Origin: Parelaphostrongylus tenuis
Lineage: Eukaryota; Nematoda; Chromadorea; Rhabditida; Metastrongylidae
Assembly (NCBI GenBank): GCA_019055375.1
Contig: JAHQIW010000373.1
Location: 1 to 64,000, forward strand
DNA: 64,000 bases
Direction: 5' to 3'
Shown here one piece after another: positions 9,951 through 57,960 of this stretch; the first letter of the stretch is position 1; every line of letters begins with the position of its first letter. The translations under genes were made by a program, and so were the position numbers. The notes under the pieces were generated by a model. The model saw nothing but the letters and a program-made list of their open reading frames with translations, made no database searches and had not been told where the DNA came from.

Positions 9951-10275
9951 AGTTTTTGCATGTGGTCTGTTATAGGTCAACTTGTAGAGCCCGATACACG
10001 TGTTTCGGCTTCGACAGCTTGGTCAGTCGGGCAGTACACTACGCCTTCAGCCAATGTCATTGTGGGAACCCAATCCCTATATAGAGTTGGCGAAGACGAA
10101 CGTTCGACACGTGCCATTAAGTATATCACTAAATGGCAGTGTTCACACTCATTTGCTTTTGGCTGGTATCGTTAACTATATCAAACCCTTCGTTTCGAGT
10201 GTTCGCTTAAGATCAAGCTCAACTCTTAATATATGAGATGATCGTTTTTTGAGCCATGTTTGTGACAGACCACAT
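9951..10275 (-). repeat. Hammerhead-bearing ~315-bp repeat, minus orientation
   Basis: This is one monomer of the family described under 14,555-14,597. Landmarks on the plus strand are GTGGTCTGTTATAGG, TAGAGCCCGATACACGTG, TTTCGG...GTCAGTCGGGC, CACTCATTTGCTTTTGGCTGG and TTTCGAGTGTTCGCTTAAGA. The ribozyme region is 9,989-10,032 read on the minus strand. Stem I (GCCCGA/TCGGGC) and the GAAA box are kept, but the core reads CTGACCA in place of CTGANGA (the catalytic G is C), so it is predicted inactive. The next monomer begins at TTTTTTGAGCCATG near 10,245, giving head-to-tail order. Confidence 0.7.
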
Positions 10276-10289
10276 GAATGGCGCAAAAA

Positions 10290-10480
10290 ATGATTTTCAG
10301 ATAGATTATTGCATTGGAGTGAGCGATATGGTTCGCATTCAATCTACACTTTCTTCTTTTTCTTCAGCAGAACAGGCGATTATCGCATTTCGGCCTTCAG
10401 ATAGGACTAAACGTGCCAGTGAGATGGGGCTGCCAATAATACTTTTCGTGACAACGCAGTCTCCCACCACTAAAAATGAC
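10290..10480 (+). repeat. Relic of the 15.7/56.9/60.6-kb repeat
   Basis: GGAGTGAGCGATATGGTT, the TTTTTCTTCAGCAGAACAGGCGAT stretch, and GACTAAACGTGCC followed by GATG align with 15,695-15,810 and 60,610-60,720 (AGTGAGTGACATGGTT, TTTCAGCACTGCAGAAGATGG, GCTGAACGTGCC). It follows directly on the hammerhead monomer. The 79-codon frame here is not considered a gene. Confidence 0.45.
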
Positions 10481-10499
10481 GCATGGAATAAGTGAAGAG

Positions 10500-11295
10500 C
10501 AACAGATCACTAGATAACCTGCCTGCTGTTTCATTTTCTTATGGTCTCGTTTTTTTGAATTTTCTTGGAGAGTTTTGTCAATATTATTGCCTGTAAACGG
10601 CGGAACTTTCAAACTTTTCGGAAATACGTTATGGATGTCGCGCTAAGTTTTGAGTTGAGAACTCGAATTTCGGTCGTGCTGTAATGAAGATCTCTAAGAC
10701 CTACATAATATAGTAAGCGCACCACACGTATCTTAACAATAATCAAATCCGATAACTTTACCATTATTCATAGCCTAGCACGAATAACCTGAAGAATAGT
10801 GTTTGCAAAAACAACAATGATTCGCGAAGTCTGTCGCTGATTTTGGTTGATTTTTCACGCTGCAGAGAACAGAATCGCGCCTTTGATGCGTCGAGCACAT
10901 CACGTTACAGTGACAGTGTGGTTTTCTAACAAAAATGATACAAATAATATTAATACGATGCCACTTCCTCGATAATTCCTAGCAATTTTCTATCATTGGT
11001 GAGTTTTATGAATTGAAACGATTATAGAATTTTTGAAAGAGCTTTTCTGTATTGTATTACGGGCACCAACTTTTTATACACAGACTTATACTCTGATATG
11101 AACATTAATCGTCGCTGCAACCTTTGTTATTAGTCATGAGAATTGATCTTACGTGTTCTACTTTTTTTTCTTCGCAAGCCTCTTCATGAGTCAAGTCCAC
11201 TATCACAATCGGCATTTCCCAAGCTATCAATCGAATCCAACAACCTAAATTAATCACAAAGATACAGAGTGAACAATTGCTGTATGACATATCTC
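10500..11295. other. No recognisable gene
   Basis: AT-rich sequence with only short frames and no clear repeat or RNA signal. Weak similarity of 10,880-10,940 to the 16,410-16,470 stretch suggests more decayed family sequence. Confidence 0.4.
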
Positions 11296-11300
11296 GTCAT

Positions 11301-11770
11301 TATTATTTGAACCAATATGTCATGTGATCTGTTAAATGGGCTAACTTATTGAGCACGTTACATATGTTTCGACCTTGGCCGTCTCATCACTCGGGCGGTA
11401 CAATTTGTCTTTAACCAATCCTCTCGGAGCGCTCAGCCCCTATACTAAGAGTAGACGACGACGACGAACATACTGTATGTCAAGCGAAACAGTGACAGAA
11501 CACACGGTGTTCTACACTCGATTACTCTTGGCTGGCATAGTTAGTGTATCATGCCTATCGTTTCGAGTGTTTTCTTAAGACCACTCTGAAATTTTAATAT
11601 ATCTTGCCACTATTATTTGAGCCAACATGTCATGTGGTCTGTTACATGTTCTCTTTAAGCCAGCCCAGTTAACAGACCCATATGACATGTTGGCTTAAAT
11701 AATAATGGCGAGATATGCTGAAATCTGAGCTTGGTCTTAAAAAAACACTCGAGGCAAAAGGCATGTTGTA
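11301..11770 (-). repeat. Hammerhead-bearing repeat monomer (minus) plus fold-back start of a second
   Basis: A full monomer runs from ATTATTTGAACCAATATGTC (11,301) to the next ATTATTTGAGCCAACATGTC (11,611), a spacing of 310 bp. The ribozyme relic lies at about 11,351-11,396 on the minus strand. GAAA and stem II (GAC/GTC) are present, but the core reads GTGATGA instead of CTGATGA. From 11,611 a second monomer begins and then turns back on itself: GCCAACATGTCATGTGG pairs with the later CATATGACATGTTGGC. The block ends in the characteristic GGTCTTAAAAAAACACTCGAGG. Confidence 0.7.
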
Positions 11771-12607
11771 TGACAGTTAAAAAAATGTTCCTGTTTAAAG
11801 ATGTGGCTTTTATGTGGGGAGCCGTGAAACAAAGTGTTTGAGCTTCTAAAGATATATGCTCACTCGTTCACGGACCTCCGCTTCGAAGATGCTATTTGGA
11901 CTTCTCTTTCCTCAAAAAACGTTCTCGTCGTAAACACGCTACAAGTCCTAATCGGAAACTAGATATTGTCTGGTGAATCTTTGAAATCAGGCAAAATGGG
12001 AAAATTCTAAGAGAGCCAAAGCACACAATATCTTCGGTTCGATTGAACACCTGTTCCATTAATGATTATATTACTCTAACAAATTAGTTAATCTTAATAA
12101 CTTGATTGCCAGTACTTGGTTGAAATGATTGCACACAGCAAGTGACATGCGCATGCTGATCCCCCTGACTCTCGTGTACGCGAATTGTTACCATTTGTAG
12201 ATACATTGCACCAAAATTGTTGGTCTGTAAGAGAGAAATAACCCGCAACACATTGGTTTCGACCACAACTTGACGTTTTCGCACAAGCCAACTTGTGCTT
12301 TCCATGCGAACGGTAAAACCTGCCGGTACTTCTAAGAGCGTCAACTTGACTCAGTATATCAGACTTCGTTTCGATGGTTACCCAGGAATGGAAAATTTAA
12401 GAGAGTGTAACTGAGCAATGAAGATGGAGGCAAAAGAGAAAAGGACAAAAATGGACGAACTTATTGGTTGATCCATCGAGAATGCTATCTCCTAGGGACC
12501 AGGGTAGTTTTCCTTATCTGAAAAGAGAGGAGCTACCATCGAAGGCTCTTCCACATTGCCGATCGTGCTGTCTGTTATTGCATCACATATGCATTAAATT
12601 AATATTA

Positions 12608-13329
12608 CGTAATCTCATAAGTTTCGGCGCCAAAGCAATAATACGAAATTTGTTAAACAGAAGTAATTCTAATTTCTTAAAAACACTATTCAAAGTATAC
12701 GCCATCAGATTAAACACATATCTATCGTCTCTCAGGCAACATAACAATAAAGCACTCATGGATTTCGCCACGTTTGGACTTGAGGAAAGTTGTCAGTTAT
12801 CGACGCAAATGCTTAATATCACAGACGGAAAAGGCAATAATCAGATGGCGACTAACCGAAACTTCATGGCGGATGATTCAGCACTCCAGCTCGGCTCGGT
12901 CAAATTTCTCTTTGTCAGTTTGGCAACATGAAACCTAGCGTTGTCTTTAAGCACAATGAGATTGTCGCTGTGACAGGGCCCATACCGGTTGTAGCGGTGG
13001 AGATGCTCAAAGTAGCGCCTGGTGTTGATCGTCTCATTCCGCTGAAAGCAAGTCACACTGAATCGCCCCAGTCCAGTGTTGAGAGATGGTGGACATAGCG
13101 TTTGGCATGAATAATTTAACCTTGGAGTTAGAGTTCATCGCTGTCCTGGTGACAACCATTAATACAGACGATGTGGACTCTTGAAGAAGCCACTTTTCGT
13201 CGACGGTGATGAATGACGATAAAGCTGTTTGAGCAAATAGTTTTGTTAAGCAACTCTAATTGATCTTACTTAGTGGATTTGGTGTTTATTGCTGCAAAGT
13301 CAAAACTTATGCGAAAACCTAATAATATA
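12608..13329 (-). pseudogene. Mariner transposase pseudogene, copy A
   Basis: On the minus strand the transposase C-terminal half can be followed through frameshifts: VDEKWLLQEST near 13,205, ETINTRRYFEHLHRYNRYG near 13,030, then LKDNARFHVAKLTKR near 12,950. DEKW and DNAR-H-A are the blocks around the first two catalytic aspartates of mariner transposases. The third (SDYHLF-type) block is not readable. The ends are inverted repeats: TAATCTCATAAGTTTCGGCG on the left, and TATTAGGTTTTCGCATAAGT read from the right on the minus strand. At about 720 bp the element is internally deleted. Related copies lie at 59.1-59.8 and from 63.34 kb to the right edge. The open frame on the plus strand at 12,464-12,931 is its antisense shadow. 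Confidence 0.75.
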
Positions 13330-13510
13330 TTTCAGTAGTCCCTCCCCTTTCCCTTCCCTCTTCGATCTTTATCATACTGCCATATGACCTTAAAACATAT
13401 GACATCAAAACTAATCCAACCACGCCATCAAATAATTGCACCTACCTACAATCTGAGTTGTGAAAAATGTCAGGAAATAAATGCATAAATAATGTTGCAA
13501 AACACGAGGG

Positions 13511-13812
13511 CATGTGGCGCAGTGGTAGAGGTGCTCTGCGTCACACACGAGGTCAATGGTTCAATCTCTCGCTCATGGCTCACCAGGCCATCGCATCCCT
13601 CCGAAATCTCTAAATTGCTACCACACTGGTCTCAGACTTGTCTGAGATGATAAGTGCCCCTGACTTAATACAATGGAAAGCTACTGTGAGCCACTGTAAA
13701 GGCCAGAAACGCATTCAATCCTTCAAAAGAAGTTAAAAATTGAAGGCGAATGTATGGTGCATTCCTAAGGGATTAATCAACGAAGAGAAATCCGTCCTTT
13801 AGCTTTAATACA
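13511..13812 (+). repeat. tRNA-derived SINE (family S1), copy A1
   Basis: It begins with a pol III A-box-like TGTGGCGCAGTGGTAGAGG and has a B-box-like GGTTCAATCTC about 40 bp later. A tRNA-unrelated body follows (CATC..TCCGAAATC, GTCTCAGACTTGTCTGAGATGATAAG, AAGGCCAGAAACGCATTCAATC), ending near TTTAGCTTTAATAC. Copies are at 17,238, 21,283, 58,235 (inverted), 59,960 and 62,160. Flanking remnants AAAACACG/ACAAAGCAGC fit a short target duplication when compared with the empty site at about 9,575. Confidence 0.7.
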
Positions 13813-14257
13813 AAGCAGCCGGCTTTTATGAGTTTACATGGTACTACCAAACGATTTACATGGTAAGACGAGTTGAGTGCGCGTTTGATTGCTGTGTAAT
13901 GTCCGTGCTTACACACGACATTATCATAAAGTCGGCTTAAAACAACCATTTCAACTAGTAGGGTTCATTTCATTACCACTTGCTTACCGCGGTCGGTCGA
14001 AGCGAGCGACGTCTGTCGACGTTAGGCGACGCCTTTCTGATCATCGGTGAGTACTTTCAAAGCTTAGCACGGTAGTGGTAGTAGCACGCGTCAACGTTTT
14101 GAATGAAACGTGGGCTCAATTCCCGCCTAAGGCCGTGTTTTTGCTTACCACTCAATTCTCTTAGGTCTATACGTAACATCATGACACTGCGAAAAAAGCA
14201 GTGAAAATACTAGAAATGTCGAGTATCAGTCATTATAATAGCTTTGAAAACGGGCTG

Positions 14258-14660
14258 ACTTATAGAGCCCAATACACCTGATATCAAAGTCAGCCCATTT
14301 CAACAGACCACATGACATGCGTGACTCGAATAATAATTATCTGGCATGTTGAAATTTGAACTGTGGTATCAAGAAAACACTCGAAACGAAAGACATGATA
14401 TACTAAATATACTAGCCAAGAGCAATCAAGTGTACAGACTATGCGTTCGGTGTTAATTTTACCGGACATAGAGTGTAAAATGTTCGTCGTCGCTGACTCC
14501 TAGTGTGGGAGTGGAGCACTCACTAGGATTGGCAAAAGACGAGAAAGGGTAACTGCCCAACTGACGAGACTGCACGGTCGAAACACGTGTATCGGGCTCT
14601 ATAAGTCAGCCCTCTAATACAGGACACATGATATGCTTGGCTCAAAAACGATTTTATGAC
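14258..14660 (+). repeat. Hammerhead-bearing ~315-bp repeat, fold-back start then a plus monomer
   Basis: GGGCTGACTTATAGAGCCC(A)ATACAC at 14,258 is the reverse of the monomer's right end, and immediately afterwards the forward end begins (GTCAGCCCATTTCAACAGACC). The monomer then runs through TTGAAATTTGAACTGTGG, AACACTCGAAACGAAAG, ATATACTAGCCAAGAGCAATC, ATAGAGTGTAAAATGTTCGTCG and GATTGGCAAAAGACGA, into the ribozyme at 14,555-14,597, and ends near CTTGGCTCAAAAACG. The turn-around point of the fold-back lies a few bases from the predicted ribozyme cleavage site. An equivalent structure is at 32,930-33,300 and, reversed, at 57,400. Confidence 0.7.
14555..14597 (+). ncRNA. Hammerhead ribozyme motif, intact core
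   Basis: The strand reads GCCCAA, then CTGACGA, a stem-loop with GAC/GTC ends, GAAA, CACGTG, TA, and TCGGGC. This is the order of a hammerhead open at stem I: stem I strand, CUGANGA box, stem II, GAAA box, minimal stem III, UH cleavage dinucleotide (GUA), returning stem I strand. Stem I pairs five of six positions (one A opposite C). Stem III is only the palindrome CACGTG, which in a single molecule leaves about two base pairs and a tetraloop but could also pair between two copies. The element is the core of a dispersed monomer and is not linked to a host gene. Confidence 0.7.
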
Positions 14661-15613
14661 ACTCGGAATCAGTAGTATTTTAATGCATTTTGCATTGTTA
14701 CGATGTTTGCTATATACCTAGGAGAACTGAGAGGTGAGCAAAAACACGGCCTCAAGAGGCAGTCGACCCGCCTTTCATTCAAACCGGAGGCGCGTGCTAC
14801 TACCATTACACCACCACTCATTTTTCAGCATCTCTATGTTGGCTATCAGCCGCCACCTCTAGCAGGTTTGCTCGTGTATGCGATTTTGCTCCTAGTTGAG
14901 CCGATAGCGATTGTAATTTTTCGTTTCGAGTGTTTTCTTAAGACCACAGCTCAAATTTCAATATGTCATAGAATCTAAGAGAATTGAGTGGTGAGCAAAA
15001 ACACGGCCTTAGGTGGGAATCGAACTCGCGTTCCATCCTATCCAGGGACGCGTGCTCTAACCACTGCTCTAACCATTCTCTTAGGTATATGGCAAACATC
15101 ATAACAATGCGAAATGCATTAAAATACTACTGATTCCGAGTATTGGTAATTAGAATAGCTGTCAGCTTAACTGGGTTTATAAAGCGAAATCGCATACCCG
15201 ACCAAACCTGTCAAAGGTTGATGGCTGATAGCTAACATCGAGATGTTGAAGAATGAGTGGTCGGGCAAATGTGCCTCGGTGGTGTAGTGGTTAGAGCACG
15301 CGTCCCCGGATAGGATGAAACGCGAGTTCCATTCCCGCCTAAGGCCGTGTTCTTGCTCACCACTCAACTCTCTTAGATTTTATGACATATTGAAGTTTGA
15401 GCTGTGGTCTTAAGAAAACACTCGGAACGAAACATTGCAATAGCTGTGGGCTAAACTGGGAGCAAAATCGCATACCCGAGCAAACCTGTTAGAGGTGGCG
15501 GGTGATAGCTAACATAGAGATGCTAAAGAATGAGAGGTGGTGTAATGGTAGTAGCACGCGCCTCCGGTATGAATGAAACGCGGGTCGACTGCCGCTTGAG
15601 GCCGTGTTTTTTG

Positions 15614-15637
15614 CCCCCCCCCCCCCCCCCTCCCCCC
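15614..15637 (+). repeat. Poly-C tract
   Basis: A run of C interrupted by a single T follows the linker of a tRNA-like unit. Homopolymers of this type are prone to slippage, so length may be unreliable. Confidence 0.9.
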
Positions 15638-19350: not shown

Positions 19351-19800
19351 TTTTTTAAGGGATTGAAAATGCGTCGCGATAACAAAATTATGCTCATTTC
19401 TTCTGGTTTTTCACACAGTGTGAAGCTGAAATCTTTCAAAATTACAGTATTTTCACTGCTTTTTTCGCAGTGTTATCATGTTCTTATATAACTTAGAGAA
19501 TTGAGTGGTGAACAAAAACACGGCCTCAGGCGGGAATCGAACCCACGTTTCATCCTATCCGGGGACGCGTGCTCTACCACTGTTTTTGTTCACCACTCAA
19601 TTCTCTAAGTTATATAAGAACATGATAACACTGCGAAAAAAGCAGTGAAAATACTGTAATTTCGAAGTATTAGTAATTAAAAATAGCTATCAGCTCAACT
19701 GGGTTTATAAAGCGAAATCGCATACCCGACCAAACCTGTCAGAGGTTGGTGGCTGATAGCTAACATTGAGATGTAGAAGAATGAGTGGTCTGGCAAATGT

Positions 19801-19872
19801 GCCTCAGTGGTGTAGTGGTAGAGCACGCGTCCCCGGATAGGATGAAACGTGGGTTCGATTCCCGCCTGAGGC
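19801..19872 (+). tRNA. tRNA-like segment, unit 1 (probable pseudo-tRNA)
   Basis: The 72 nt fold as a full cloverleaf: acceptor GCCTCAG/CTGAGGC (7 pairs), D-arm GTG/CAC, anticodon stem CGTCC/GGATG around the 7-nt loop CCGGATA, and T-arm GTGGG-TTCGATT-CCCGC. The B box GGTTCGATTCC is canonical. The anticodon would read GGA but the universal U33 is C, and the form is not a class II Ser tRNA, so decoding function is doubtful. It more likely serves as the pol III promoter of a SINE-like unit. Confidence 0.4.
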
Positions 19873-20094
19873 CGTGTTTTTGTTCACCACTCAATTCTCT
19901 AAGTTATATAAGAACATGATAACACTGCGAAAAAAGCAGTGAAAATACTGTAATTTCGAAGTATTAGTAATTAAAAATAGCTATCAGCTCAACTGGGTTT
20001 ATAAAGCGAAATCGCATACCCGACCAAACCTGTCAGAGGTTGGTGGCTGATAGCTAACATTGAGATGTAGAAGAATGAGTGGTCGGGCAAATGT

Positions 20095-20166
20095 GCCTCA
20101 GTGGTGTAGTGGTAGAGCACGCGTCCCCGGATAGGATGAAACGTGGGTTCGATTCCCGCCTGAGGC
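20095..20166 (+). tRNA. tRNA-like segment, unit 2 (probable pseudo-tRNA)
   Basis: Sequence identical to the unit 1 segment, exactly 294 bp downstream. The same cloverleaf and the same unusual C at position 33 apply. Confidence 0.4.
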
Positions 20167-20388
20167 CGTGTTTTTGTTCACCACTCAATTCTCTAAGTTA
20201 TATAAGAACATGATAACACTGCGAAAAAAGCAGTGAAAATACTGTAATTTCGAAGTATTAGTAATTAAAAATAGCTATCAGCTCAACTGGGTTTATAAAG
20301 CGAAATCGCATACCCGACCAAACCTGTCAGAGGTTGGTGGCTGATAGCTAACATTGAGATGTAGAAGAATGAGTGGTCGGGCAAATGT

Positions 20389-20460
20389 GCCTCAGTGGTG
20401 TAGTGGTAGAGCACGCGTCCCCGGATAGGATGAAACGTGGGTTCGATTCCCGCCTGAGGC
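20389..20460 (+). tRNA. tRNA-like segment, unit 3 (probable pseudo-tRNA)
   Basis: Third identical segment, 294 bp after unit 2. Its last two bases overlap the right-hand 12-bp direct repeat, so the array ends precisely at the tRNA 3' end. Confidence 0.4.
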
Positions 20461-22760: not shown

Positions 22761-22782
22761 GGTTATACTTTATTTTTATTTG

Positions 22783-23045
22783 AGCAAACATGTTATGTGT
22801 TCTAGTAAAAGCTCTTGTACAGCCCGTCTCCTATATCTCTTTGCAGGGAGGGTAAGCTTCCGAGAGAAGTGACTAATAAAAAGATCGAAAGACGACGGGT
22901 TCTGCCCGACTGACGAGTCTTTAAGGACGAAACGTGTATCGGGCAGTATAAAAGCCATTACCAGACCACATGACACGTTCGCTCAAATAATAATGAAAGG
23001 ATCTATTGGAATTTGAGCGTGGTCTTAACTAAACTCTCGAAACAA
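22783..23045 (+). repeat. Hammerhead-bearing repeat, truncated monomer
   Basis: A short reversed end (TTTGAGCAAACATGTTATGTG) precedes a plus-oriented ribozyme region, CAGACCACATGACACG, TGAAAGGATC..TTGAGCGTGGTCTTAACTAAACTCTCGAAAC. The order ribozyme, right end, left end shows a head-to-tail junction near 22,980-23,010. Confidence 0.65.
22903..22945 (+). ncRNA. Hammerhead ribozyme motif, intact core and perfect stem I
   Basis: Stem I is TGCCCGA (22,903-22,909) with TCGGGCA (22,939-22,945), seven perfect pairs. The core CTGACGA occupies 22,910-22,916. Stem II is 22,917-22,928 (GTC...GAC, possibly one more wobble pair, loop TTAA). GAAA is at 22,929-22,932. Stem III is only CGTG, followed by the cleavage dinucleotide T-A at 22,937-22,938. 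All canonical core positions are present. The best-formed member of the family in this window. Confidence 0.75.
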
Positions 23046-23204
23046 AGTTTCAAGGTTATAGAAATCTTCTGAAATCAACCAAGATAGTGCATGGTGTTGT
23101 TAAAGTAAACGTTTATTAGTACGTACTCCTGCTTTCTCGTTCCCAAATTCTGCTATAGTTGGCGTTTAACTGTGAGGCCGTTTCTGTAATTTATTTGCAT
23201 ACGA

Positions 23205-26400: not shown

Positions 26401-26479
26401 TTTGGGAAATTTTTAAACATTTCGTTATTATGCGCTAATTAACAACAAAAATGGCATTAACTATTTTTAAATCTTTCCT

Positions 26480-26995
26480 GTTTCAGTGTTTTCTTAAGAC
26501 CATAGCTGAAATTTCAACTTGCCAGATAACCATTTCTGAGCGGCGCATGTTATCTGGTCTGTTAAATAGACTGACTCATAGTATCCAGTAGACGTTTTTC
26601 GACCTTAGTCTTGTCAATTGGATAGTTACCCTTCGTCGTTAGCCAGTCTTCTCGGCGTGCTCAGTCCCCTGTACTATGAGTTGGCGACGACGAGCAATTC
26701 ACGCTCTATCTCCGTGAAATTATCCTCGGACACATACTGTTGTACACTCGATTGCCCTTGGCTAGTATCATTATATATAACATACCTTTCCTTCGGAGTG
26801 TTTTCTTAAGACCATGCGCTCGGTGGTAATTTCACCGGACATAGAGTGTAAGATGTTCGTCTTCGCCTACTCTCAGTATAGGAGAGTAAGCGCTTTGAGA
26901 GGATTGGCTAAAGACGAAGGTTAATTGCCCGACTGACGAGACAATCAAGGTTGAAACAAGTGTATCGGGCTCTATCATGCGTGGCTTAAAAATGG
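26480..26995. repeat. Hammerhead-bearing repeats in inverted arrangement
   Basis: A minus-oriented monomer occupies about 26,536-26,815 (from CATTTCTGAGCGGCGCATG to GAGTGTTTTCTTAAGACC), preceded by the tail of another (TTTTCTTAAGACCATAGCTGAAATTTC at 26,490), a head-to-tail join. From 26,815 the orientation flips to plus and includes the intact ribozyme at 26,927. The ribozyme of the minus monomer (about 26,583-26,628) is decayed. Confidence 0.7.
26927..26970 (+). ncRNA. Hammerhead ribozyme motif, intact core
   Basis: GCCCGA (26,927-26,932) pairs with TCGGGC (26,965-26,970), six perfect pairs. CTGACGA is at 26,933-26,939 and GAAA at 26,953-26,956. Stem II (GACAATCAAGGTT) is weakened by substitution compared with the GACC..GGTC form seen in relatives. 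Stem III reads CAAGTG, so its palindrome is lost in this copy. The cleavage site would be GTA. Confidence 0.65.
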
Positions 26996-32249: not shown

Positions 32250-32580
32250 AAATAGAGACTGAAGACATTATTTCAACGAGTCATCACTTGAAATTATTTT
32301 AGAACAACGAACAATGAGGATATTCATAGTAGTAGTGTCGACGGTGTCGTTGTATAGATGATGAGAGAACGAGACGAGTCAGAAAGATGAACTTGGTTGA
32401 GATTTTCCAACCATCATTCGCATCTGCGTGAAATGAATTTGCAGAGAGTTTTATGTGATAAGTTTAGGTGTAATAAGCATGTCTCAGCTCCACATTGAGC
32501 TCTGCCAATTAGGTAGAATCTATTAAAATAACGAGTGAGTGTGAACATTAACTTCGAAACGCTTTTCGAAGTATGTCAGG
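32250..32580. other. No recognisable gene
   Basis: Short spacer between the duplicated block and the hammerhead repeats. No coding or RNA signal seen. Confidence 0.5.
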
Positions 32581-32585
32581 TAATC

Positions 32586-33300
32586 ATTTGTTTTTGAGCC
32601 ACGTATGTCATGTGGTCTGCTAAAATAGGCTGACTTATAGAGCCCGAGACACGTGTTTCGATAATGTGACCCCGTTGGTCGTAAAGTTACCCTTTCGTCC
32701 TTTGCCAATCTTGTGTATGTGCTCCAGTCCCCACACTAAGAATTAGTGACAACGAGCATTTTACATTCTATGTGCGGTGAAAGTGTCACCGAACACATAG
32801 TGTTGTACACTCGATTGCTCTTGACTAGTATATTTAGTATATCACATCCTTAGTTTCAAGTGTTTCTCAAGACTACAGCTCAAACTTCAATATGCCAGTT
32901 TATCACTTTTTGAGCCACAATGTTATGTGGTCTATTAAAGTGGGCTAACTTATAGAGCCCGTTACACCACATAACAAAGTCAGCAAATTTCAACAGACCA
33001 CCTGACATGCATGACTCAAAAAATGATTATCTGGTGTGTTGAACGTTAAGCTGTGATCTTGAGAAACGACTCGAAACGAAAGATATGATGTATTAAATAT
33101 ACTAGCCAAGAGCAATCGAATGTGTTCGGTGGTAATTCCACAGGCCATAGAGCTTAAAATGTTGGTCGTCGCTAACTTTTAGTGTGTTGACTGGAGCGCC
33201 CACACAAGGTTGGCAAAAGACGAAAGGGCGACTGCTCGACTGACTAGACCACAAGATCGAAACACGTGTATCGGGCTCTATAAGTTAGCCCATTCTGATT
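32586..33300. repeat. Two hammerhead-bearing monomers in inverted (tail-to-tail) arrangement
   Basis: A minus monomer spans 32,586-32,905 (320 bp, from TTTTTGAGCCACGTATGTC to the next TTTTTGAGCCACAATG). A partial second minus start (to GAGCCCGTTACAC at 32,967) turns at CACATAACAAA into a plus monomer that runs to the ribozyme at 33,234-33,276 and ends TAAGTTAGCCCATTC. The structure matches 14,258-14,660. The minus ribozyme (about 32,640-32,690) is decayed. Confidence 0.75.
33234..33276 (+). ncRNA. Hammerhead ribozyme motif, one core substitution
   Basis: Stem I GCTCGA/TCGGGC (one wobble), stem II GACC..GATC, GAAA, CACGTG and TA are present, but the core reads CTGACTA where CTGANGA is required. 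The changed base is the catalytic G, so activity is not expected. Confidence 0.6.
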
Positions 33301-35510: not shown

Positions 35511-35701
35511 CCGGGCATATGAAGAAGTTTGTGTAGGTAAAATAATTTTATTATTGCTGTTACACTTACTAAAAAGCCTTTTTTTAAGGTAAAGAAATTC
35601 TTGGAATCGCGATGACTTAAGCTTTCTAACGATTACCAAATATGATTCTTGATTTTCTTCTTTGAGCAGAACACGAGGTGTTACATTGAACTTTATTCGA
35701 T

Positions 35702-35740
35702 AGCTGACGTTTCGGCAGTTCGCCTTCTTCAGAGCCTGGA
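35702..35740 (-). ncRNA. Hammerhead ribozyme motif in the left inverted repeat
   Basis: On the minus strand: CTGAAGA (35,732 to 35,726), stem II AGGC-GAACT-GCC, GAAA, then CGTC at 35,710-35,706, with the cleavage site GTC. Stem I is about four pairs (GGCT with AGCT). Stem III is almost absent, as is known for hammerheads of Penelope-like elements. It mirrors the right-end copy exactly. Confidence 0.7.
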
Positions 35741-35812
35741 AAGATCAAAATGTTTGCAATACAATCAGTCAAACACCTCCATTACTTCTTTAGAGAAAAT
35801 CACCAGACCTAG

Positions 35813-37132
35813 ATGTTCCTGGATCGTCTACGTAACGCAAACCCGAACAACGCGTACGTGATGGAGTCATTCGACGTCACTGCTTTATATACCAACGTGT
35901 CGAATGACTCCGCATTGCAAGCCACACATGAGCTTCTTATACAACACCAGGGAGCTGTAAACATGTATGGCTTGACGATTGAGCAGTTCATGATCCTACT
36001 AAAAGAGTGCTTGAACTGTTCAATCTTCAGATGGTCCGGGAATTATTATGCTCAAACCAGAGGGCTGGCAATGGGACAGCGACTGGCACCTAGCCTGGCC
36101 ATTGCCTTTATGTCTAAAGTGGAAGCACCAGTGATGGATCTCCGGCCATTACTCTACTGTAGGTATATAGATGATTGCTTGATTATCTGTTCCACTCAAG
36201 AGGAGCTGGATGATTGTTTTAGATTGCTGAATGAACAGTCAGAGTATATAAGATTCACCCGTGAGATACCAAAAGACGATTGGCTTCCATTCTTGAACGT
36301 GCAAATAAGCTTAACTGAGAGCGGCTACATAACGAAGTGGTACCGAAAGCCAAGTAGTAAGAATATCTTGGTTCACTATCTCTCTTCTCATCCCTCACAT
36401 ACGAAGAAGGCGCTAGTAAAAAACATGTTTCGAACAGCAGCCAATGTATGTACCGGGGAGGAGCAGAGAGTAGAATCCGTGAAACTGGCGCGGGAAATAG
36501 CCACTTCTAATGGATACGAATTCGTAGCCCCTCGGCTTAGGTTTAGAGGAAATAATGCGCCTCCGAACGAAAACTTAGTTGAAAGGAAAGTCCCGTTTAT
36601 CATCCCGTTCTATTCAGATGAGATTAGTACAGCTATAAAACGATGTTTGAAAAGAGCGGGTTTAGAGCAATCGGTGGCCATTATTGAAATACCACCGAAT
36701 ACTCTAAAACGCCAACTAGTTCGCAACCGCTTATATGACCGTCTCTGTATGATGAAAGATTGTAAAATATGTCCTAACGGCAGAGACGGTGATTGCATGA
36801 GCGTAGGTACAGTCTACCTAATCTCTTGCAAAGCGTGTAGTGATAAATATGTTGGCGAAACGGGTAGGCCGCTCTATGCACGCATAGAAGAACACCTAGC
36901 TGACAAGCGTCTTAATAGACAAAACATCCCGCTAGGGACGCATAGAGCACAGAAGCACGACGGAGTTGATTTTGAAATCGAAGTCACCATCCTTGCGCAG
37001 GAGCAAAAAACATCAGCGCGAAAGATCTTGGAAGCATTTTGGATTAATACGACCAATCCAACCATAAACCGCAGGGAGGAATGCCTTGTAAACACTCGTG
37101 ATATGAGCCAGTATATAAGACTGTTGTTTTGA
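35813..37132 (+). CDS. Penelope-like reverse transcriptase with GIY-YIG endonuclease
   Basis: A 439-codon frame without stops. The RT fingers/palm motifs are in order: FDVTALYTNV (residues 20-29, motif A), QTRGLAMGQRLAPSLA (81-96, motif B), YCRYIDDCLIIC (115-126, catalytic YIDD at 118-121), LPFLNVQI (158-165) and a WYRKPSSKNILVHYLSSHPSH block (about 176-196). A Cys-rich linker follows (C312, C317, C320, C328). The C-terminal endonuclease has TVYLISC (333-339), KYVGETGRPLYARI.EHL (345-362) and the conserved LEAFWINTTNPTINRR region (Glu407, Asn residues at 412-419). This fusion is the hallmark of Penelope-like elements, which copy themselves by target-primed reverse transcription. Compared with full-length members (about 800 residues or more) the N-terminal domain is missing, so the chosen Met may be internal to the original protein. 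The TGA stop is at 37,130. Confidence 0.93.
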   Translation: MFLDRLRNANPNNAYVMESFDVTALYTNVSNDSALQATHELLIQHQGAVNMYGLTIEQFMILLKECLNCSIFRWSGNYYAQTRGLAMGQRLAPSLAIAFMSKVEAPVMDLRPLLYCRYIDDCLIICSTQEELDDCFRLLNEQSEYIRFTREIPKDDWLPFLNVQISLTESGYITKWYRKPSSKNILVHYLSSHPSHTKKALVKNMFRTAANVCTGEEQRVESVKLAREIATSNGYEFVAPRLRFRGNNAPPNENLVERKVPFIIPFYSDEISTAIKRCLKRAGLEQSVAIIEIPPNTLKRQLVRNRLYDRLCMMKDCKICPNGRDGDCMSVGTVYLISCKACSDKYVGETGRPLYARIEEHLADKRLNRQNIPLGTHRAQKHDGVDFEIEVTILAQEQKTSARKILEAFWINTTNPTINRREECLVNTRDMSQYIRLLF

Positions 37133-37335
37133 TGGGTAGGGTGCATTACGAGCCTATGTGTCTCTCTTGCTGGTGATCTCCACTTGGATCATCCAGTGGA
37201 ACAAATATAAAAAGCGGTGAGTATGTTGAGTGTTGATTTTTGCTTGATGCGATTGAAATCTAGGTCTGGTGATTTTCTCTAAAGAAGTAATGGAGGTGTT
37301 TGACTGATTGTATTGCAAACATTTTGATCTTTCCA

Positions 37336-37372
37336 GGCTCTGAAGAAGGCGAACTGCCGAAACGTCAGCTAT
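37336..37372 (+). ncRNA. Hammerhead ribozyme motif in the right inverted repeat
   Basis: CTGAAGA (37,340-37,346), stem II with GGC (37,348-37,350) pairing GCC (37,356-37,358), GAAA (37,359-37,362), then CG and the cleavage dinucleotide UC of GTC (37,364-37,366). Stem I pairs GGCT (37,336-37,339) with AGCT (37,367-37,370), one wobble. It lies downstream of the ORF in sense orientation, so the element transcript would contain it. Confidence 0.75.
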
Positions 37373-37479
37373 CGAATAAAGTTCAATGTAACACCTCGTG
37401 TTCTGCTCAAAGAAGAAAATCAAGAATCATACTGAAGCATGCCGAGGTTAATAGACAGTCGGTCTTGGGAGTTGTTAGA

Positions 37480-38025
37480 AGAATTACCAAATATCTTAAA
37501 CAAAACGTTTCTGCAGCGAGAAAGGCTTCGAAGCAATCGCGTACTTGAGCTGATACCCTTCGTCTTGTAAGGGTTAAAAAGTAGAAGTTCAGACTTCCGA
37601 CATTTTCAACTAATCGCATTTTTTAAATCGTTGCCAAAAAATTGTCGACATACTGTTTTGTTTTTTTACAAACTTAGCTGTAGAGAATAGAATTTAAGAC
37701 CCGACATTTGAGACAGTGTTCATAATTAGCGGCCTAAAGTTACGGTACAAGAAGTACAGTTAAGAAAGCTTACAGCGAATTAGACAAAAAGAGCATTTGT
37801 GTGGGTAAAAACTTCGTCGGCTAATCTCCCTCATTTATCGTTTTTTTGCTTCTGAGCAGGTACAATATTTTCGCCGTATTGGACAAATCGGCGTTTCATG
37901 TTGTTTGTGAGACTTCGAAGAGTTATCAGAGACACGACGGTGCTATAGGCATATATTGGTCTGTCATCGTGATTGAGACACATATTGTCGTTCTGTGCAA
38001 CAAACTTCCAACTGAATTATCTACA
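37480..38025. other. No recognisable gene
   Basis: Flank of the Penelope-like element. A weak match of 37,855-37,890 to the region around 8,470 suggests old repeat. No frame of interest. Confidence 0.4.
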
Positions 38026-51639: not shown

Positions 51640-53140
51640 GAACAGAGGATGCACGCAGAATGTGAAAGCAAATTTCAGCTTGGCATTTACAGTGCAGCAA
51701 AAAGTCCTTCTCAAAAACCAAGCGCACCATCAAGTTCGTCAAGACTTGTGCCATCGAATGTTTCTCGAGAGCATTCAAGGGAAAAATTCTGTTGGCAAAA
51801 AATGCTTGAGTACGAAACAAATTCTGCTACCTCTTCATTATATAAGCTCCTTTTCGATCCACAGAAGAAGCTTACCTTGGGGCTTGTTTTTTACGATTAA
51901 ATAATTGCTCGATAGCTTATATTGAAAGAATTTTAACGATTAATTCCAACTTCAAAAACGCCTTGTCATTGTGCTGGAAGAGCAAAACTAATGAATTACT
52001 GCTCATTCAAAGATTTCTCGTTGATCAAAGCATTTTCTCTAGAGCTTTGGTAATCAATCCATTAACCGAATTTAAGAGGTTTTCAAAAAATATAATTGCT
52101 TTTCTAAATGCACCGCGCATTACGCTGTGACAGCCACAAGAAGATTGGGTTTCGCAAAATGGATCACTTCTATTATCCACTCCACACTTCGATACCTTGG
52201 AAACAACATACTTTTCAATAGTTTTAAATATTCAGATAATCAATCCATAGTTCAAATCAGAGGGATTTTAGTCATACATTTTAGCTTCAAAAATTCTTTT
52301 TTATTGTACTGAAAGAGCAAAATAAATTTTCGTTTCTCATTCAAAGATATCTCGCTTAGAAAGCTTTGCATTTGAAATACATATAATTATTTGATATATC
52401 ACATCTTAGGAATTTAAATAATTTATTTGGTTTTGAAGAATGACCTCGCGTGACGCTGCAACCACAAAAGAAGACTGGACACCACAAAACCGGAAATGAA
52501 ACATTGTGGGCGAAACGGAATATTCTTTTCGTTATTATGAAGCATCAAGAAGTTCGTTCAAAAAACCAAGAACACTATTGAAATTCCTGAAATTTGACAT
52601 ATCGCTGGGTCTTTTACCTGTAAGCGAGAGGCCTTTGTCGGCGAGAAATTTTTGAATGGCGAACTGATAATTATTTGTGCTCTTTTAGTGCAATAACAAG
52701 GTTTTCTTGGAAGTCAAGTACACAACTCAGATTTTTTGATTTGAGCTATCGATTGATTCCTCAAACATTGAAGGGGTCAGAAATACTTTTTTCCCAGTGG
52801 ATCGAAGTGAACGGAGAATAGTTGAAGTGATCCACTTTTCTGCGAAATACTTTGTTCTTTTGGCAGTTACCGCGTAATACCAAGATCATTACGGAAACCA
52901 AATAAATTGTTGTAATAATCATGACTTGATTTTTCCACTGGTTAGTAAACTCCGAAGGCAAAGATCTGATCAGAGCGAAATCTTTTAATGAGAATCAAAT
53001 ATTATTCTTGCTCTTTCAGCGCAATTAGAAAGCTTTCTTTGATGGTGAGAAATACCATTAAAACTGTTCTAATTTGTACTATCGAACGATCATTTGAACA
53101 TTAAAAAAGACCAATAAATGCGTTTTTTACAGTGGGTCAA
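51640..53140 (+). repeat. Degenerate 150/330-bp-period repeats
   Basis: Repeated pairs include GAAGAGCAAAACTAATGAATTACTGCTCATTCAAAGATTTCTCG (51,979) against the GAAAGAGCAAAATAAATTTTCGTTTCTCATTCAAAGATATCTCG stretch (52,309), step 330, and CGCTGTGACAGCCACAAGAAGA (52,122) against CGCTGCAACCACAAAAGAAGA (52,452), step about 330. Motif pairs of the 150-bp kind occur at 52,685 and 53,020. Part of it (52,113-52,497) is repeated almost exactly at 54,801-55,184. Confidence 0.55.
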
Positions 53141-53148
53141 AAGGGCGC

Positions 53149-54740
53149 TTGTGTAACGGAAAGGTGCCTAAAATACTAGAGTCTTTGGTCTTCAAATTTA
53201 GACCCACCGTCAACTGTGTTATAGGGACAACGGATGAGACATTGTGGCTCATGAACCTATTACTAGTACAATTACTAAAGAACATTTCAACCTATCTCAC
53301 CGATAACCAAATGTTTCCAGACTATCTACGTAACGCGTCCTCCAACAACCCGCACCTAATGGAATATTTCGGCGTAACCGCTCTTTATACAGATGTGTCG
53401 AATGAATTCGCCATGCAAGCCCACTGCCAGCTTCTAGTGAAACACGAGAGGACCACAAATATGTTTGGCTTCACCATCCGGCGGGTTATAACTTTCTTAA
53501 AAGAGTGTTTAAACTGCTCATTTTTTCGATGGTATGGAATCTAGTTTGCCCAAATTAGAGGGCTGGTGACGGGGCAACGACTAGCGCCAACTCTTGCTAT
53601 TGCCTAATGTCTATATTGGAGACCTCAATAATTGATCTCGGACCATTACTCTACTGCAAGTATATGGATGACTGCGTTGCCGCCTGCTCAACCCAAGAGG
53701 AGGAGAAGGACAAATGTTTTGAGTTACTGAATAATCAGTCACAGTGCATAAAGTTCAGCCGTGAGAAACCGAAGAAACTGGCTCCCATTTTAGACATTCA
53801 GGACAAACTGTTCGAAAACTTTTACAATAGAAAGTCAACGTAAACCAAGCAACAAAACCATCTTGGATCATTACCTGTCATCTTATAAGTCACGCATTAA
53901 ACGCGCGCTTCTGTACAGCTTGCTTCGAACACCGACCAATGTGTGCACAGAAAAAGAGCACAAGGCAGAATCTCCAAGCATAGCGCAAGAATAGCGATGT
54001 ATAATGGCCACGATACGGTAGTTGCTTCTCAGCTTAGATTCAGAGGAAGTTCTTTACTCCCAAACGACAAGTGCGTTACAAACAATGTTTCTTTCTCCCC
54101 GCCTTTCATCTCTAACGAAGTAAGAATAGCTATTAAACGCTGCCTAAAACGAGCCTGCATGAGATCTGGTGCAATCCTAATCGCTTGCCAGGCTTAAGAA
54201 GATGGATACATTGGAAAAACGGATAAACCACTATTCCTTTATGAAAAAGAATACCCAATTGGATTACGCAGCTCTAATCCGAAAACGCCACTAGGCGAGC
54301 ATAGGGACCAAGAACATACATAGTAATGTTTGAGTCAAATTCATGATAATCGCAAAGGCATCAATAACACCTGCCCGTAATACGTTAAAAGCCTTTCGGA
54401 TTAGCAACATAGCCTAGAAACGAACCGAAAAGATGAGTGCCTCGTCATCACACGTGATCTCAAACTACACCTCGGGTGATCTTATAGGCCTCAGTTAGGC
54501 ACAACCCACTGATGCACTGACCTTAAGCGTATAATCTTCAGTGGATAATTGATAGACTCAAAATATCAAAGCGGTAAGTGATTTATAATGAAGCTTTAGT
54601 ATGCGATCCAAAATCTATTTCCTACTCTTTCTTTTGCGGTTATGGAGGTTTTGACTTAGTGGATTGTGGATCACTTTGACCTAGCGAAGCTCTGCAGAAG
54701 GTGACCAAATGAATCGTTAGCCACCACGATTATTGTATTA
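53149..54740 (+). pseudogene. Penelope-like element, copy 3, broken
   Basis: The 53,149 frame carries sequence N-terminal to that preserved in copy 1 (TDETLWLMNLLLVQLLKN) and then YFGVTALYTDVSNEFAMQA (motif A; D replaced by G in FDVT). Motif B (53,555-53,610) has stops and shifts. The palm reads LLYCKYMDDCVAACS (53,645; YMDD). Later pieces are KKLAPILDIQDKL, and LRFRGSSLLPNDKC with ISNEVRIAIKRCLKRAC (54,030-54,160). The GIY-YIG end is fragmentary (DGYIGKTDKPLF near 54,200). The end region (54,600-54,735) has a decayed hammerhead (GCAGAAGGTGACC...). The element is inactive. Confidence 0.82.
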
Positions 54741-54780
54741 TTAATGCTGCATTTCTAACCGTATCGTTGTATGCTTCGCT

Positions 54781-55582
54781 AATACTCAAAAGATAATACG
54801 CCGCGCATTACGCTGTGACAGCCACAAGAAGATTGGGTTTCGCAAAATGGATCACTTCTATTATCCACTCCACACTTCGATACCTTGGAAACAACATACT
54901 TTTCAATAGTTTTAAATTTCAGATAATCAATCCATAGTTCAAATCAGAGGGATTTTAGTCATACATTTTAGCTTCAAAAATTCTTTTTTATTGTACTGAA
55001 AGAGCAAAATAAATTTTCGTTTCTCATTCAAAGATATCTCGCTTAGAAAGCTTTGCATTTGAAATACATATAATTATTTGATATATCACATCTTAGGAAT
55101 TTAAATAATTTATTTGGTTTTGAAGAATGACCTCGCGTGACGCTGCAACCACAAAAGAAGACTGGACACCACAAAACCGGAAATAAGACATTGTATGCGA
55201 AACCCAATATTTTTTTCATTATTATGAAGTATTAAGAAGTTCGTTCAAGAAACCAAAAACTCTATTGAAATTTCTGAAATTTGACATATCGCTGGGTTTT
55301 TTAACTATAAGCGAGAGGCCTTGGTCTGCGAGTAATTTTCGAATGAGGAACAGATAATTATTTGTGCTCTTACGCGCAATAACAAGGTCTTCTTGAAAGT
55401 TAAGTACACCACTCAGAGTTTTTAATTTGAGCTATCGACTGATTCTTTATACATTAGAAGCGATCAGAAATGCTCCCAGTGGATCGAAGTGAAGGGAAAA
55501 TAGTTGAATTACCTACTTTTCTGATAACCCATTGTTTTTTTTTTGGCCGTTACAGCGCAATACCAATACTCAATAGATAATA
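54781..55582 (+). mobile_element. 766-bp repeat block bracketed by 18-bp direct repeats
   Basis: AATACTCAAAAGATAATA (54,781-54,798) and AATACTCAATAGATAATA (55,565-55,582) bracket a copy of the 52.1-53.0 kb repeat. This places a second copy of that repeat directly at the end of Penelope-like copy 3. The first 385 bp are almost identical to 52,113-52,497 (one indel seen); the rest is clearly more diverged. There is no ORF. Confidence 0.55.
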
Positions 55583-55589
55583 TTAATAA

Positions 55590-56220
55590 CACCTCGAATC
55601 GGCTGAACGGAAGAGAATACTCTGTTTATTCCTTTTCTTCAGCACCTTAAACTGAGATTAACATATGCGTATTTATTCTGACTTTTTCGTTCAACTCATC
55701 CTTCCCTCTTAAGCGGCGGTTAAAATCTATTATTCGCCATCCCACAGCGCTGAAATTCCCTCCGGTATTCTCTTCCTGTGTCAATGTTATGGTCTACAAA
55801 TATGAATCAGCTGTTTTTTTATGCTATTTTTGTGTGCAAAATGTTTTATATCATGGCTTTATATGACTTTTGAAGATGACGACTTTTGTGTTCAAAAACG
55901 AAATTATGTCAAATTTGCTAACTTGTGATTTAGGTTTGATAGTTTAAAGTGGTGATCTGAGAGCACAGTTTTGGGAGAGTAAGACGAGTAGTGTAAATTC
56001 GCTTGAAACCTCCCGCCTCATCCCTTCTATGATGTTTTCGGTTGGTTTTACAATATAAAGACGACTCTTGCCATGCAACAAAATTGAAAAATCGTGCCGT
56101 TTACCTTTTTAATATTGACTCTACATCTAAGTTGCATTACTTCGGCATCGTTCAGTTGTCCATTTTCTTGTCTTAGACATGGCTTTCTCCAAGCTTCGTT
56201 AACCGGTTGGGAACAATATG
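55590..56220. other. No recognisable gene
   Basis: AT-rich spacer left of the palindrome, without recognised repeat or coding content. Confidence 0.45.
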
Positions 56221-57109
56221 CGTTTAGTCTTATTGAAGTCTCATGTATTTTATACTCTCTGTTACTAACGATATAACTTCCTTTAGTGATGATAAGAATG
56301 CAAATTTCATTGGGAAACTACAAAATTGTCTTTGTTATGAGTTGCGCTCGCCGCACAAAATTAACGTGGTGGCCAGGCAATTGATCTTGTGCGCCGCTTC
56401 GCTAGCATTTTCCCTAAGCGCCATTCGTGCATGAGTAGAAAACTGATTTGTTCCCCCACAGTTCCATCTCAAGGCAGGTGTTAGTAATTTGCATATCAAT
56501 ATTTTCGCAAGGGAATGCGCAACTGGAAGATACCACTATCAAGCAGTTTCAAATACTTTGGCTAGTAAATCTGCAAGGTAATGTTTTCGGAAATGGCGTT
56601 TTTCGTATACAAAAGGCGTCATCGTAAAAGTTCTATAGACACCCTAATTAAAAATATGCAAATGAATACCGTCTTGAACGCACTTCCAAAAAATACATAA
56701 TTTTCTCTTTTACTATCATTACAGAAAAATGAAGGCGGAGTCGTATTTGTTTTTCTAATACTTGCCATTCAAGTATGCAAAAATAGCTTGCTTTTGAGAA
56801 ATAAGTAACATAGATGGTTTCGTAGATGAGCCACATTAAAACAGAATTTTCGGAAAAGAAAGGAATAATGCACATAGATAAGTTCTTACTTCACCTCTTT
56901 CAGGAGCCACTTTGACTGGAGGGTGATCGCCCCTGTGATGTGACGCCCTTAGCCACATAATGGGGGCACCTGCAGTTTTTTCTGGAGGCCAAAATAAGGC
57001 CATCTCCTGCACTGTTGAAGAAGAAAGCTGCGAACTGATTACTAACCATATCACTCACTTTAACTCATTTATGTTAGTTTTGACAATGATACATCAAAAG
57101 TACACACCC

Positions 57110-57960
57110 AGAAGAAATGAGTGGTGGGCAAAAACACGGTTCCAAAGGGAGTCAAACCCGTCTTTCATTAACACCGATGTCGCGTGCTACTACCACTGCA
57201 CCACCAATGCACATTTGCACCACCTCTCATTCTTCAACATTCAACATTCTTCCACTCATTCTCTATGTTAGCTCTCAGCCGCCAACCTCTAACATATTAT
57301 GTCGGGTATGAGATTTCGCGTTTCGTTTCGAGTGTTTTCTCAAGACCACAGCTCAAATTTCAGTATGTCATAAAATCACTTTTCAGCCGCGCATGTCATG
57401 AGGTATGTTAAAAAGGGCTAACTTCGATATGTGGTGTATCGGGCTCTATAAGTCAGAGCATTTAGCAGACCTAATTACATGCGTCACTCAAAAAAATGAC
57501 TATCTGGCATATTGAAAATTGAGCTGTGGTCCTAGGAGATCACTCGATACAGAAGAAATAATATATTAAACATACTAGCCAAGAGCAATCGAATTTACAG
57601 AACTATGTGTTTTGAGGTAATTTTACAAGACACAGAGTGTAAAATGTCCGTCGTCGCCTACTCTTAGTATAGAGGACTGAACTCCCCGAGAGGATTGGCC
57701 AACGACGTAGATTAACTGCCTGATTGACGAAACCGAGGACGAAACACGTGTATCGAATTCTATAGGTCAGCCTTTTTCAACAGCTATTGTAATGACTAAC
57801 ACGGAATTTCTAGTATTTTTACTGCTTTTTTCGCAGTGTCATGATGTTATATAAATACCTAATAGAATTGAGGGGTGAGCATAGACACGGCCCTAGGCGG
57901 GGATCGAACCCTCGTTTCATATATAACGTTGACATGTGCTACATCCACTACCTGCTACGC
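57110..57960. repeat. tRNA-like (S2) and hammerhead repeat mosaic
   Basis: Reverse-oriented tRNA-like segments lie at 57,137-57,210 and 57,890-57,955. Between them is a hammerhead monomer (57,310-57,790) with the fold-back start at 57,419. It is the inverted counterpart of 14,070-15,660. Confidence 0.7.
57718..57758 (+). ncRNA. Hammerhead ribozyme motif, decayed
   Basis: GCCTGA, TTGACGA, stem II, GAAA, CACGTG, TA, TCGAAT. The first core base is T instead of C, and stem I is disrupted. GAAA and the palindromic stem III are intact. Confidence 0.5.

Follow-up and report, generated by a model that had tools for sequence, protein, structure and literature searches.

A nematode family of hammerhead retrozymes with the insertion anatomy of a Penelope-like element

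Introduction

The 64-kb window (the whole stretch of DNA analysed here) contains a dispersed repeat that a sequence-only reading described as retrozyme-like, with one hammerhead ribozyme motif per monomer. The questions raised are whether the repeat is a retrozyme and which enzyme inserts it. Metazoan non-LTR retrozymes are described in PMC7229834 and PMC7761336, for coral, mussel and axolotl, as multi-copy, tandem units of 150-450 bp and low GC with a type I hammerhead, target duplications of more than 4 bp and Penelope-like elements in the same genome. The authors who named retrozymes present Penelope-like elements as strong candidate movers, because the two co-occur, both bear hammerheads and both are tandem. 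Insertion scars record the enzyme that made them.

Results

One monomer with a ribozyme at a fixed position

All seven loci proposed in the window were present and could be aligned to one monomer of about 316 bp. They hold nine ribozyme regions, because the loci at 26.5 and 32.6 kb carry two each. The claim that the ribozyme occupies the same place in each copy stands for its position; a full core (CTGANGA, GAAA, UH) is retained in three of the nine (14561+, 22910+ and 26933+), the number first counted, and at least one core base is gone in the other six. No ORF of at least 130 aa lies over these copies, and they have no RT and GIY-YIG coding of the Penelope-like kind. Mapping showed inverted two-arm inserts, minus then plus, in five of the seven loci and no direct tandems among the window copies.

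9951..10263, minus: monomer copy, one arm (alignment)
9990-10034, minus: ribozyme in that arm, core broken (CTGACCA)
11299..11657, minus: arm of more than one unit (alignment, arm mapping)
11352-11396, minus: ribozyme in that arm, GTGATGA, stem III ACATATGT, palindrome preserved
11651..11770, plus: partial arm (alignment, arm mapping)
14248..14280, minus: short arm (arm mapping)
14287..14661, plus: arm of 1.2 units (alignment)
14555-14597, plus: ribozyme in that arm, intact core, single stem I mismatch
22781..23046, plus: copy, with its plus arm at 22888-23046
22781-22807: short opposite-strand piece of that copy (motif match only)
22902-22946, plus: ribozyme in the 22888-23046 arm, intact core, stem I of 8 bp
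26472..26814, minus: arm (alignment)
26578-26626, minus: ribozyme in that arm, TTGACAA, stem I changed to ATCCA/TGGAT and still paired
26809..26975, plus: arm (alignment)
26927-26970, plus: ribozyme in that arm, intact core
32573..32967, minus: arm (alignment)
32641-32689, minus: ribozyme region in that arm, degenerate core
32976..33294, plus: arm (alignment)
33233-33276, plus: ribozyme in that arm, CTGACTA
57321..57424, minus: arm (alignment, arm mapping)
57434..57783, plus: arm (alignment)
57718-57758, plus: ribozyme in that arm, TTGACGA

A strict hammerhead descriptor matched the window twice; over 300 dinucleotide shuffles, a shuffled window averaged 0.02 matches, with a maximum of 2. Rfam reported no hammerhead in the window at the gathering score, and a search of 9900-15000 as a single piece found none at E<=10 either. 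Searches of 71-base pieces gave sub-threshold matches to RF00163 at 14555-14597 (27.6 bits, cut-off 34) and to RF00008 at 22895-22938 (27.3 bits, cut-off 48.5). With RF00163, a search of the whole 481.5-Mb genome, that of a strongylid-like nematode, gave 31 matches at E<=1e-3; of these, 20 exceeded the cut-off. No match at this E value was found in 14 control genomes. The 28 matches retrieved all belong to a sister family, B, and none to the window family, A. The Rfam check suggested by the earlier reading gave a mixed outcome, with family B in the genome above the cut-off and family A below it. The topology of both ribozymes is type I, one per unit; the 22.9-kb piece had its best score with the type III model, truncated at its 5' end. 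The family A ribozyme had no match in collections of viral and prokaryote contigs.

Stems I and II covary among genome copies, in favour of the earlier reading. Over 59 genome rows, paired cells reach 91.1% against 87.0% in shuffled rows, and double-change cells number 42 against 14.1 (each 0/500 shuffles); pairs with any double change (7 against 4.3) lie within the shuffling range (41/500). The nine window rows have six pairs with double changes against 2.1 (3/500). Stem III is a loopless palindrome of 8, 10 or 12 nt with CACGTG at its centre. Altered versions are mostly still self-complementary (ACACGTGT, ACATATGT, ACACCGGTGT, ATAGGCGCCTAT, ACAGGTACCTGT), and self-complementarity is perfect in 35 of 40 intact-core matches, one of the 40 being spurious. 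Because the loopless stem mostly stays palindromic upon change, these data point to ribozymes that may act as dimers. Lunse, Weinberg and Breaker reportedly found in 2017 that minimal Penelope-associated hammerheads cleave as dimers. Those share with the present ribozymes a loopless stem III and the proposed dimer action, whereas here the palindromic stem III is longer and the elements are non-autonomous. The Rfam RF00163 model likewise draws stem III as four pairs without a loop.

At least three retrozyme families, A, B and C, occur in the genome, the last with a ribozyme of its own. The units of A and B measure 316 and 284 bp, with a GC of 0.43 and 0.44. The tandem arrangement first proposed was found here, outside the window: locus L059 of family A has three ribozymes spaced 317 bases, two of its units being identical over 313 positions, and locus L016 of family B has three units. 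With three or more families of this kind and with direct tandems in the genome, the description as retrozyme-like holds; the units are short, non-coding and low in GC, with one type I hammerhead per monomer and target duplications. Families A and B are otherwise unalike and have in common a module of about 100 nt just 3' of the ribozyme. A rod-like RNA was rejected, as the folding of the monomer is unexceptional (z = -1.5 sense, -2.5 antisense).

Two arms, preferred outer ends and target duplications

After removal of 10 duplicate loci, every two-arm locus among the copies examined is minus-then-plus (A 29/29, B 18/18), with the 3' ends outward; the window copies, counted separately, add five more. 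Beyond these sets there are one A locus of the order '+-+' and one-arm loci (8 A, 7 B). Outer ends are clustered (R=0.72 for A, R=0.82 for B), and most lie at one of two sites, about 40-80 or about 90-127 nt beyond the point of cleavage; a locus usually has one end at each. An amplified A subfamily makes up 11 of the 34 two-arm A loci (window included) and has a common inner junction; inner junctions in other loci vary. With this subfamily set aside, the ranges 62-80 and 114-127 take in 34 of the 46 A ends; for B, 28 of 36 fall within 39-60 or 90-108. A long tail is present on exactly one arm in 21/23 A and 16/18 B loci with tail cuts chosen post hoc; with a cut at 85 the B count is weaker (13/18, p=0.03).

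The inner ends of B give R=0.08, and those of A R=0.52 when the amplified subfamily is included and R=0.35 (p about 0.004) when it is left out. In the latter set 12 of 46 are no more than 16 nt from the cleavage site, with 4.8 expected; such ends, which had not been predicted, could be 5' ends made by the ribozyme. Arms longer than one unit are frequent (A 34/68, B 12/36). The two flanks share a string of at least 8 bp at 35 of 69 loci, compared with 5.2% for mismatched flanks, and of at least 10 bp at 25 of 69, compared with 0.9%; target duplications of 8-15 bp are found at about half of the loci. Opposite arms are not usually mutual nearest relatives (A 6/44, B 4/20 unit pairs), which leaves the idea that both arms come from one template unsupported.

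A Penelope-like element with the same anatomy

The window also contains a Penelope-like element.

35644..37482, plus: Penelope-like element, 5'-truncated
35813-37132, plus: its RT and GIY-YIG ORF
35641-35814 and 37258-37431: its identical inverted ends, 174 bp
37340 (plus) and 35732 (minus): its hammerhead-like motif, with an extra A before stem II
35632..35643 (left) and 37483-37494 (right): its target duplication ATTACCAAATAT

Rfam at a loose threshold found no hammerhead in this motif. In the genome, 13 plus-arm ends of the element lie 110-127 nt after the motif, two of which, those of L074 and L075, share a contig and appear to be a single site that was duplicated. The minus arms end at 58, 61 and 62, and at 65 in the window copy; three of the seven visible minus-arm ends are elsewhere (102, -121 and -1493). 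The element has the same insertion anatomy as the retrozymes, at similar distances. According to PMC3846280, Penelope elements have inverted ends, an optional tail at one end and duplications of 8-10 bp, and the retrozymes show this anatomy of inverted ends, one-end tail and short target duplications.

No clear sequence similarity links the retrozymes to the window's Penelope-like element: the element's score with the module was reached in 23/300 shuffles for A and 86/300 for B. A CAGTCG-like motif seen by eye before the long end in the Penelope-like element, B and C was dropped, because a 7-mer common to two 130-nt stretches arises by chance.

Discussion

A proposed mechanism and its alternatives

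Because the Penelope-like element has the same anatomy at similar distances, we consider it probable (about 0.7) that these nematode retrozymes, non-autonomous and with one type I hammerhead per unit of about 316 nt, are moved by Penelope-type reverse transcription. Hammerheads that may dimerise by way of the palindromic stem III would cut read-through or tandem transcripts at GUA|UCGGGC. A Penelope-type reverse transcriptase would copy the resulting retrozyme RNA, circular or multi-unit. A separate cDNA would be primed by each target strand, at either of two sites within the module 3' of the ribozyme, and both cDNAs would run back beyond the ribozyme and halt at variable points. Repair would then join the two head to head, between target duplications. 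A purified Penelope enzyme is reported in PMC11167929 to cleave and extend both strands.

Head-to-head arms could also arise by snap-back, a single cDNA priming itself rather than both target strands being used. PMC3846280 proposes self-priming for rotifer Penelope, and some Penelope inner ends here (L095, L087) are only 17-23 nt apart. The inner ends of the retrozymes, however, are within 30 nt of each other only at chance rate (A 4/23, 4.4 expected; B 5/18, 3.9 expected), and their two arms start at different preferred sites, which makes self-priming unlikely. We give a slim chance to movement by a LINE, such as the RTE-like LINE of the window, with the inverted arms as twin-priming products. 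LINEs are numerous, a single 781-bp piece giving 3660 candidates at first look, and are named together with Penelope-like elements as candidate movers in PMC7229834. An inverted arm was seen in neither of the LINE copies compared (0/2, n=2 only); the list of 40 single-strand LINE places carries no weight, as a list of this kind failed to show the arms of the Penelope-like element. Twin priming yields complementary, non-overlapping parts of one RNA, whereas both retrozyme arms overlap and hold the same 3' region.

The repeats might be dead satellites or SINE-like repeats whose hammerhead is a functionless relic in this species, and the core bases lost in six of nine window ribozymes would fit; but the full motif is kept in many fetched copies, the two L059 units are identical, and the stems carry compensatory changes, and we regard a relic as quite improbable. 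Foldback or MITE-type DNA transposons with a chance ribozyme-like palindrome would explain inverted repeats with target duplications and the common inner junction of the amplified subfamily. Such an origin is hard to reconcile with inner junctions that differ at the other loci, many arms of more than one unit, direct tandems in the genome and covarying stems I and II, and is very improbable.

Relation to known elements

The type I hammerhead, one per unit, the non-coding unit length and GC, the direct tandems, the target duplications and the presence of Penelope-like elements in the same genome are all as described for metazoan retrozymes in the sources above. The nematode host and the loopless palindromic stem III differ from those descriptions, as do the inserts of two head-to-head arms that end at two preferred sites; the main text of PMC7229834 uses none of the words 'inverted', 'orientation' and 'head-to-head'. 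No natural nematode hammerhead retrozyme was among the matches listed from titles and abstracts of the open-licence literature. Plant LTR retrozymes differ in having type III hammerheads in LTRs and a 4-bp duplication, shorter than those found here. With Penelope-like elements as described in PMC3846280 and PMC11167929, the retrozymes share, besides the insertion anatomy, hammerhead motifs and, as proposed here, an internal start of reverse transcription, but they code for no protein.

These retrozymes add a nematode to the known hosts, and their natural stem III variants offer material for testing dimer action. In one genome, the insertion scars of retrozymes and of a near-identical Penelope-like family resemble each other and lie similarly far from the ribozyme, and the question of what moves animal retrozymes therefore becomes testable in vitro.

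A tandem unit with a tRNA

The window holds another two-arm element, in which no hammerhead was found.

19435..20460, plus: tRNA-bearing tandem element, a minus arm (19435-19581) followed by three 294-bp units
19425-19436 and 20459-20470: its target duplication GCTGAAATCTTT

It is conceivable, though doubtful, that one Penelope-type machine moves a guild of non-autonomous RNAs, in which the ribozyme could be replaced by any RNA-processing signal before the module of about 100 nt. If so, the tRNA unit would be the retrozyme counterpart without a ribozyme, the tRNA giving a polymerase III promoter and a cut by tRNA-maturation enzymes in place of the hammerhead. Its score with the window's Penelope-like element was reached in 155/300 shuffles, and no rider module clearly resembled the window's Penelope sequences among nine comparisons. 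In that set, the tRNA unit against the 49-kb element stood out (1/300 shuffles), and nothing is built on it.

The unit is minus-then-plus in 19 of 19 two-arm loci, one arm stopping no more than roughly 55 nt beyond the tRNA 3' end and its partner 83-116 nt beyond it, with pieces shorter than about 57 nt not listed in the mapping. An arm end exactly at the tRNA 3' end was rejected as a general feature, that point being the query end too; it occurs in the window copy only, where the target duplication defines it. In diverged copies the short arm ends about 24-36 nt after the tRNA 3' end.

Sequence features of family A

Judged from its sequence, family A is an animal retrozyme in a nematode host and appears to carry a Penelope-type integration scar. 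As far as the literature searched shows, a nematode retrozyme is new, and the searched sources, available in part, yielded no description of a Penelope-type scar in retrozymes. The sequence-only reading had proposed that seven loci of the window share one monomer, and we found a common unit of ~316 bp. Its hammerhead is present as described: GCCCGA/TCGGGC pairs as stem I, CTGACGA and GAAA flank a short stem II, and ACACGTGT precedes the cleavage triplet GTA. The core is indeed kept in three copies, i.e., in three of nine ribozyme regions spread over the seven loci. A strict hammerhead descriptor matched the window twice, versus 0.02 matches expected from 300 dinucleotide shuffles. With Rfam, the window did not reach the cut-off, and a sub-threshold type I match was obtained at 14555-14597, scoring 27.6 bits (cut-off 34) when a 71-base piece was searched with the type I model. 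No hammerhead was listed for 9900-15000 even at E<=10. The copies at 14.2 and 57.4 kb have common flanks and are not independent insertions. Repeated blocks, both direct and inverted, occupy 12600-18100 and 56200-63900.

Covariation of the stems, suggested earlier as a check, was found among the nine window copies, in which 6 of 13 pairs were changed on both sides (shuffled mean 2.1, 3/500). It was borne out in part by 59 rows picked by fuzzy motif match and hence biased towards the motif: paired cells (91.1% vs 87.0% shuffled) and cells changed on both sides (42 vs 14.1) exceeded shuffling, 24 of these 42 arising from a single subfamily difference in stem II, but the count of pairs doubly changed at least once did not (7 vs 4.3, 41/500). 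Stem III lacks a loop, and its middle four bases are mostly self-complementary (ACGT, ATAT, CCGG, GCGC, GTAC); the core-intact exceptions are, in the window, the copies at 22.9 and 26.9 kb and, in a second family, B, those of L001, L007, L008 and one L026 ribozyme. Because the middle four bases of a hairpin would vary freely, yet are mostly self-complementary here, we read stem III as a probable pairing of two ribozymes (a dimer). Pairing between two hammerheads is documented in viroids and newts and has been suggested for Penelope elements (PMC6155905, PMC7761336).

Genome copies and insertion anatomy

Searching 481.5 Mb of genome with the family A monomer gave 5677 first-look candidates, 40 of which were scored, yielding 53 matches. 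One locus (L059) holds family A as a direct tandem of three ribozymes spaced 317 bases. The genome has 31 Rfam type I matches, and the 28 fetched all belong to family B, whose unit measures 284-285 bp; locus L016 contains three B units in direct order, as well as an inverted pair of a third ribozyme family, C, at 502 (-) and 730 (+), with stem III ACACCGGTGT. Families A and B are alike 3' of the ribozyme (score reached by 0/1000 letter shuffles) and show no likeness outside this part (502/1000). Near-identical inverted copies, on one contig or across several, were seen at L003/L004 (C821), L033-L040 (C4186, C4187, C2484) and L074/L075 (C3602), and represent long duplications or an assembly artefact.

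Arms were mapped onto the circular unit after ten duplicate loci were dropped. The order was minus-then-plus in all two-arm loci (29 of A, 18 of B); one further A locus has an extra arm (+-+), and 15 loci of A and B have one arm. The tandem arrangement proposed for the window did not hold, as the same mapping showed five loci to be inverted, minus-then-plus, and two to be one-armed. Counted from the cleavage site, A outer ends outside the amplified subfamily, a group with a common inner junction, fell mostly at 62-80 (16/46) and 114-127 (18/46), and B outer ends mostly at 39-60 (16/36) and 90-108 (12/36); in the amplified subfamily one side ends at about 30. With cuts chosen post hoc on data already seen, the long form was usually on one arm (A outside the subfamily, 21/23; B, 16/18). 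Inner ends were scattered in B (R=0.08) and less so in A outside the subfamily (R=0.35). Flank strings of at least 8 bp in common were found at 35 of 69 loci, vs 5.2% in the control.

Penelope-like and tRNA-bearing elements

Two further elements of the window have related anatomy:
35644-37482, Penelope-like element, 5'-truncated copy, whose inverted ends are identical over 174 bp; target duplication of 12 bp
19435-20460, tRNA-bearing tandem element, with two-arm insertion anatomy and without a hammerhead

Both inverted ends of the Penelope-like copy contain a hammerhead-like motif with one extra A, and the best named relatives of its reverse-transcriptase ORF (35813-37132) are from Ancylostoma, Haemonchus, Necator, Nippostrongylus, Heligmosomoides and Angiostrongylus, which marks the window as DNA of a strongylid-like nematode. 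Of 3560 candidates, 40 places were scored; they share 98-100% identity over about 300 bp, and some form tandems with a spacing of 2985 bp. In the 30 pieces fetched, 13 of the plus arms reach 110-127 nt past the motif. An outer end is visible in seven minus arms, the window copy among them, and lies at 58-65 in four of these and elsewhere in three. Ten distinct two-arm places, leaving out L070, L080 and L084 with their extra fragments, are minus-then-plus, and L094 has a 16-bp duplication, AAGACTATGTCTACTT. The family fits the description of rotifer Penelope, with inverted pseudo-LTRs, one with a tail, and 8-10 bp duplications (PMC3846280). Two more Penelope-like remnants lie at 49505-50584 (-) and 53098-54473 (+), the latter between 300-bp direct repeats (52223-52522 / 54910-55209, 97%). 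In a LINE control, an inverted arm was absent in two copies sharing 3.36 kb (n=2). A 781-bp LINE-like piece gave 3660 genome candidates; the LINE-like element at 23300-25780 is broken and ends at a long CA repeat (25795-25868).

Each 294-bp unit at 19581-20460 carries a predicted tRNA-Ser(GGA), and neither Rfam nor the strict descriptor found a hammerhead in the window unit. The genome gave 3046 first-look candidates. Among 40 loci parsed from a coordinate list, 19 had two arms, each time in minus-then-plus order. In every one of these, one arm ends 83-116 nt past the tRNA 3' end, and the other stops at this end or a little beyond it, the next ~55 nt being below the resolution of the list. Diverged copies in fetched loci end at about 24-36 and 71-108. 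The module of this unit, the counterpart of the ~100-nt stretch just 3' of the ribozyme in A and B, showed no resemblance to the A module (286/1000 shuffles) and resembles the B module (0/1000; 2/300 in a second comparison). Elsewhere in the window, an ORF at 40162-40644 matches Pfam DDE_Tnp_1_7, and 376-nt inverted arms lie 8 kb apart (34205-34580 / 42756-43131), one with a tRNA-like match.
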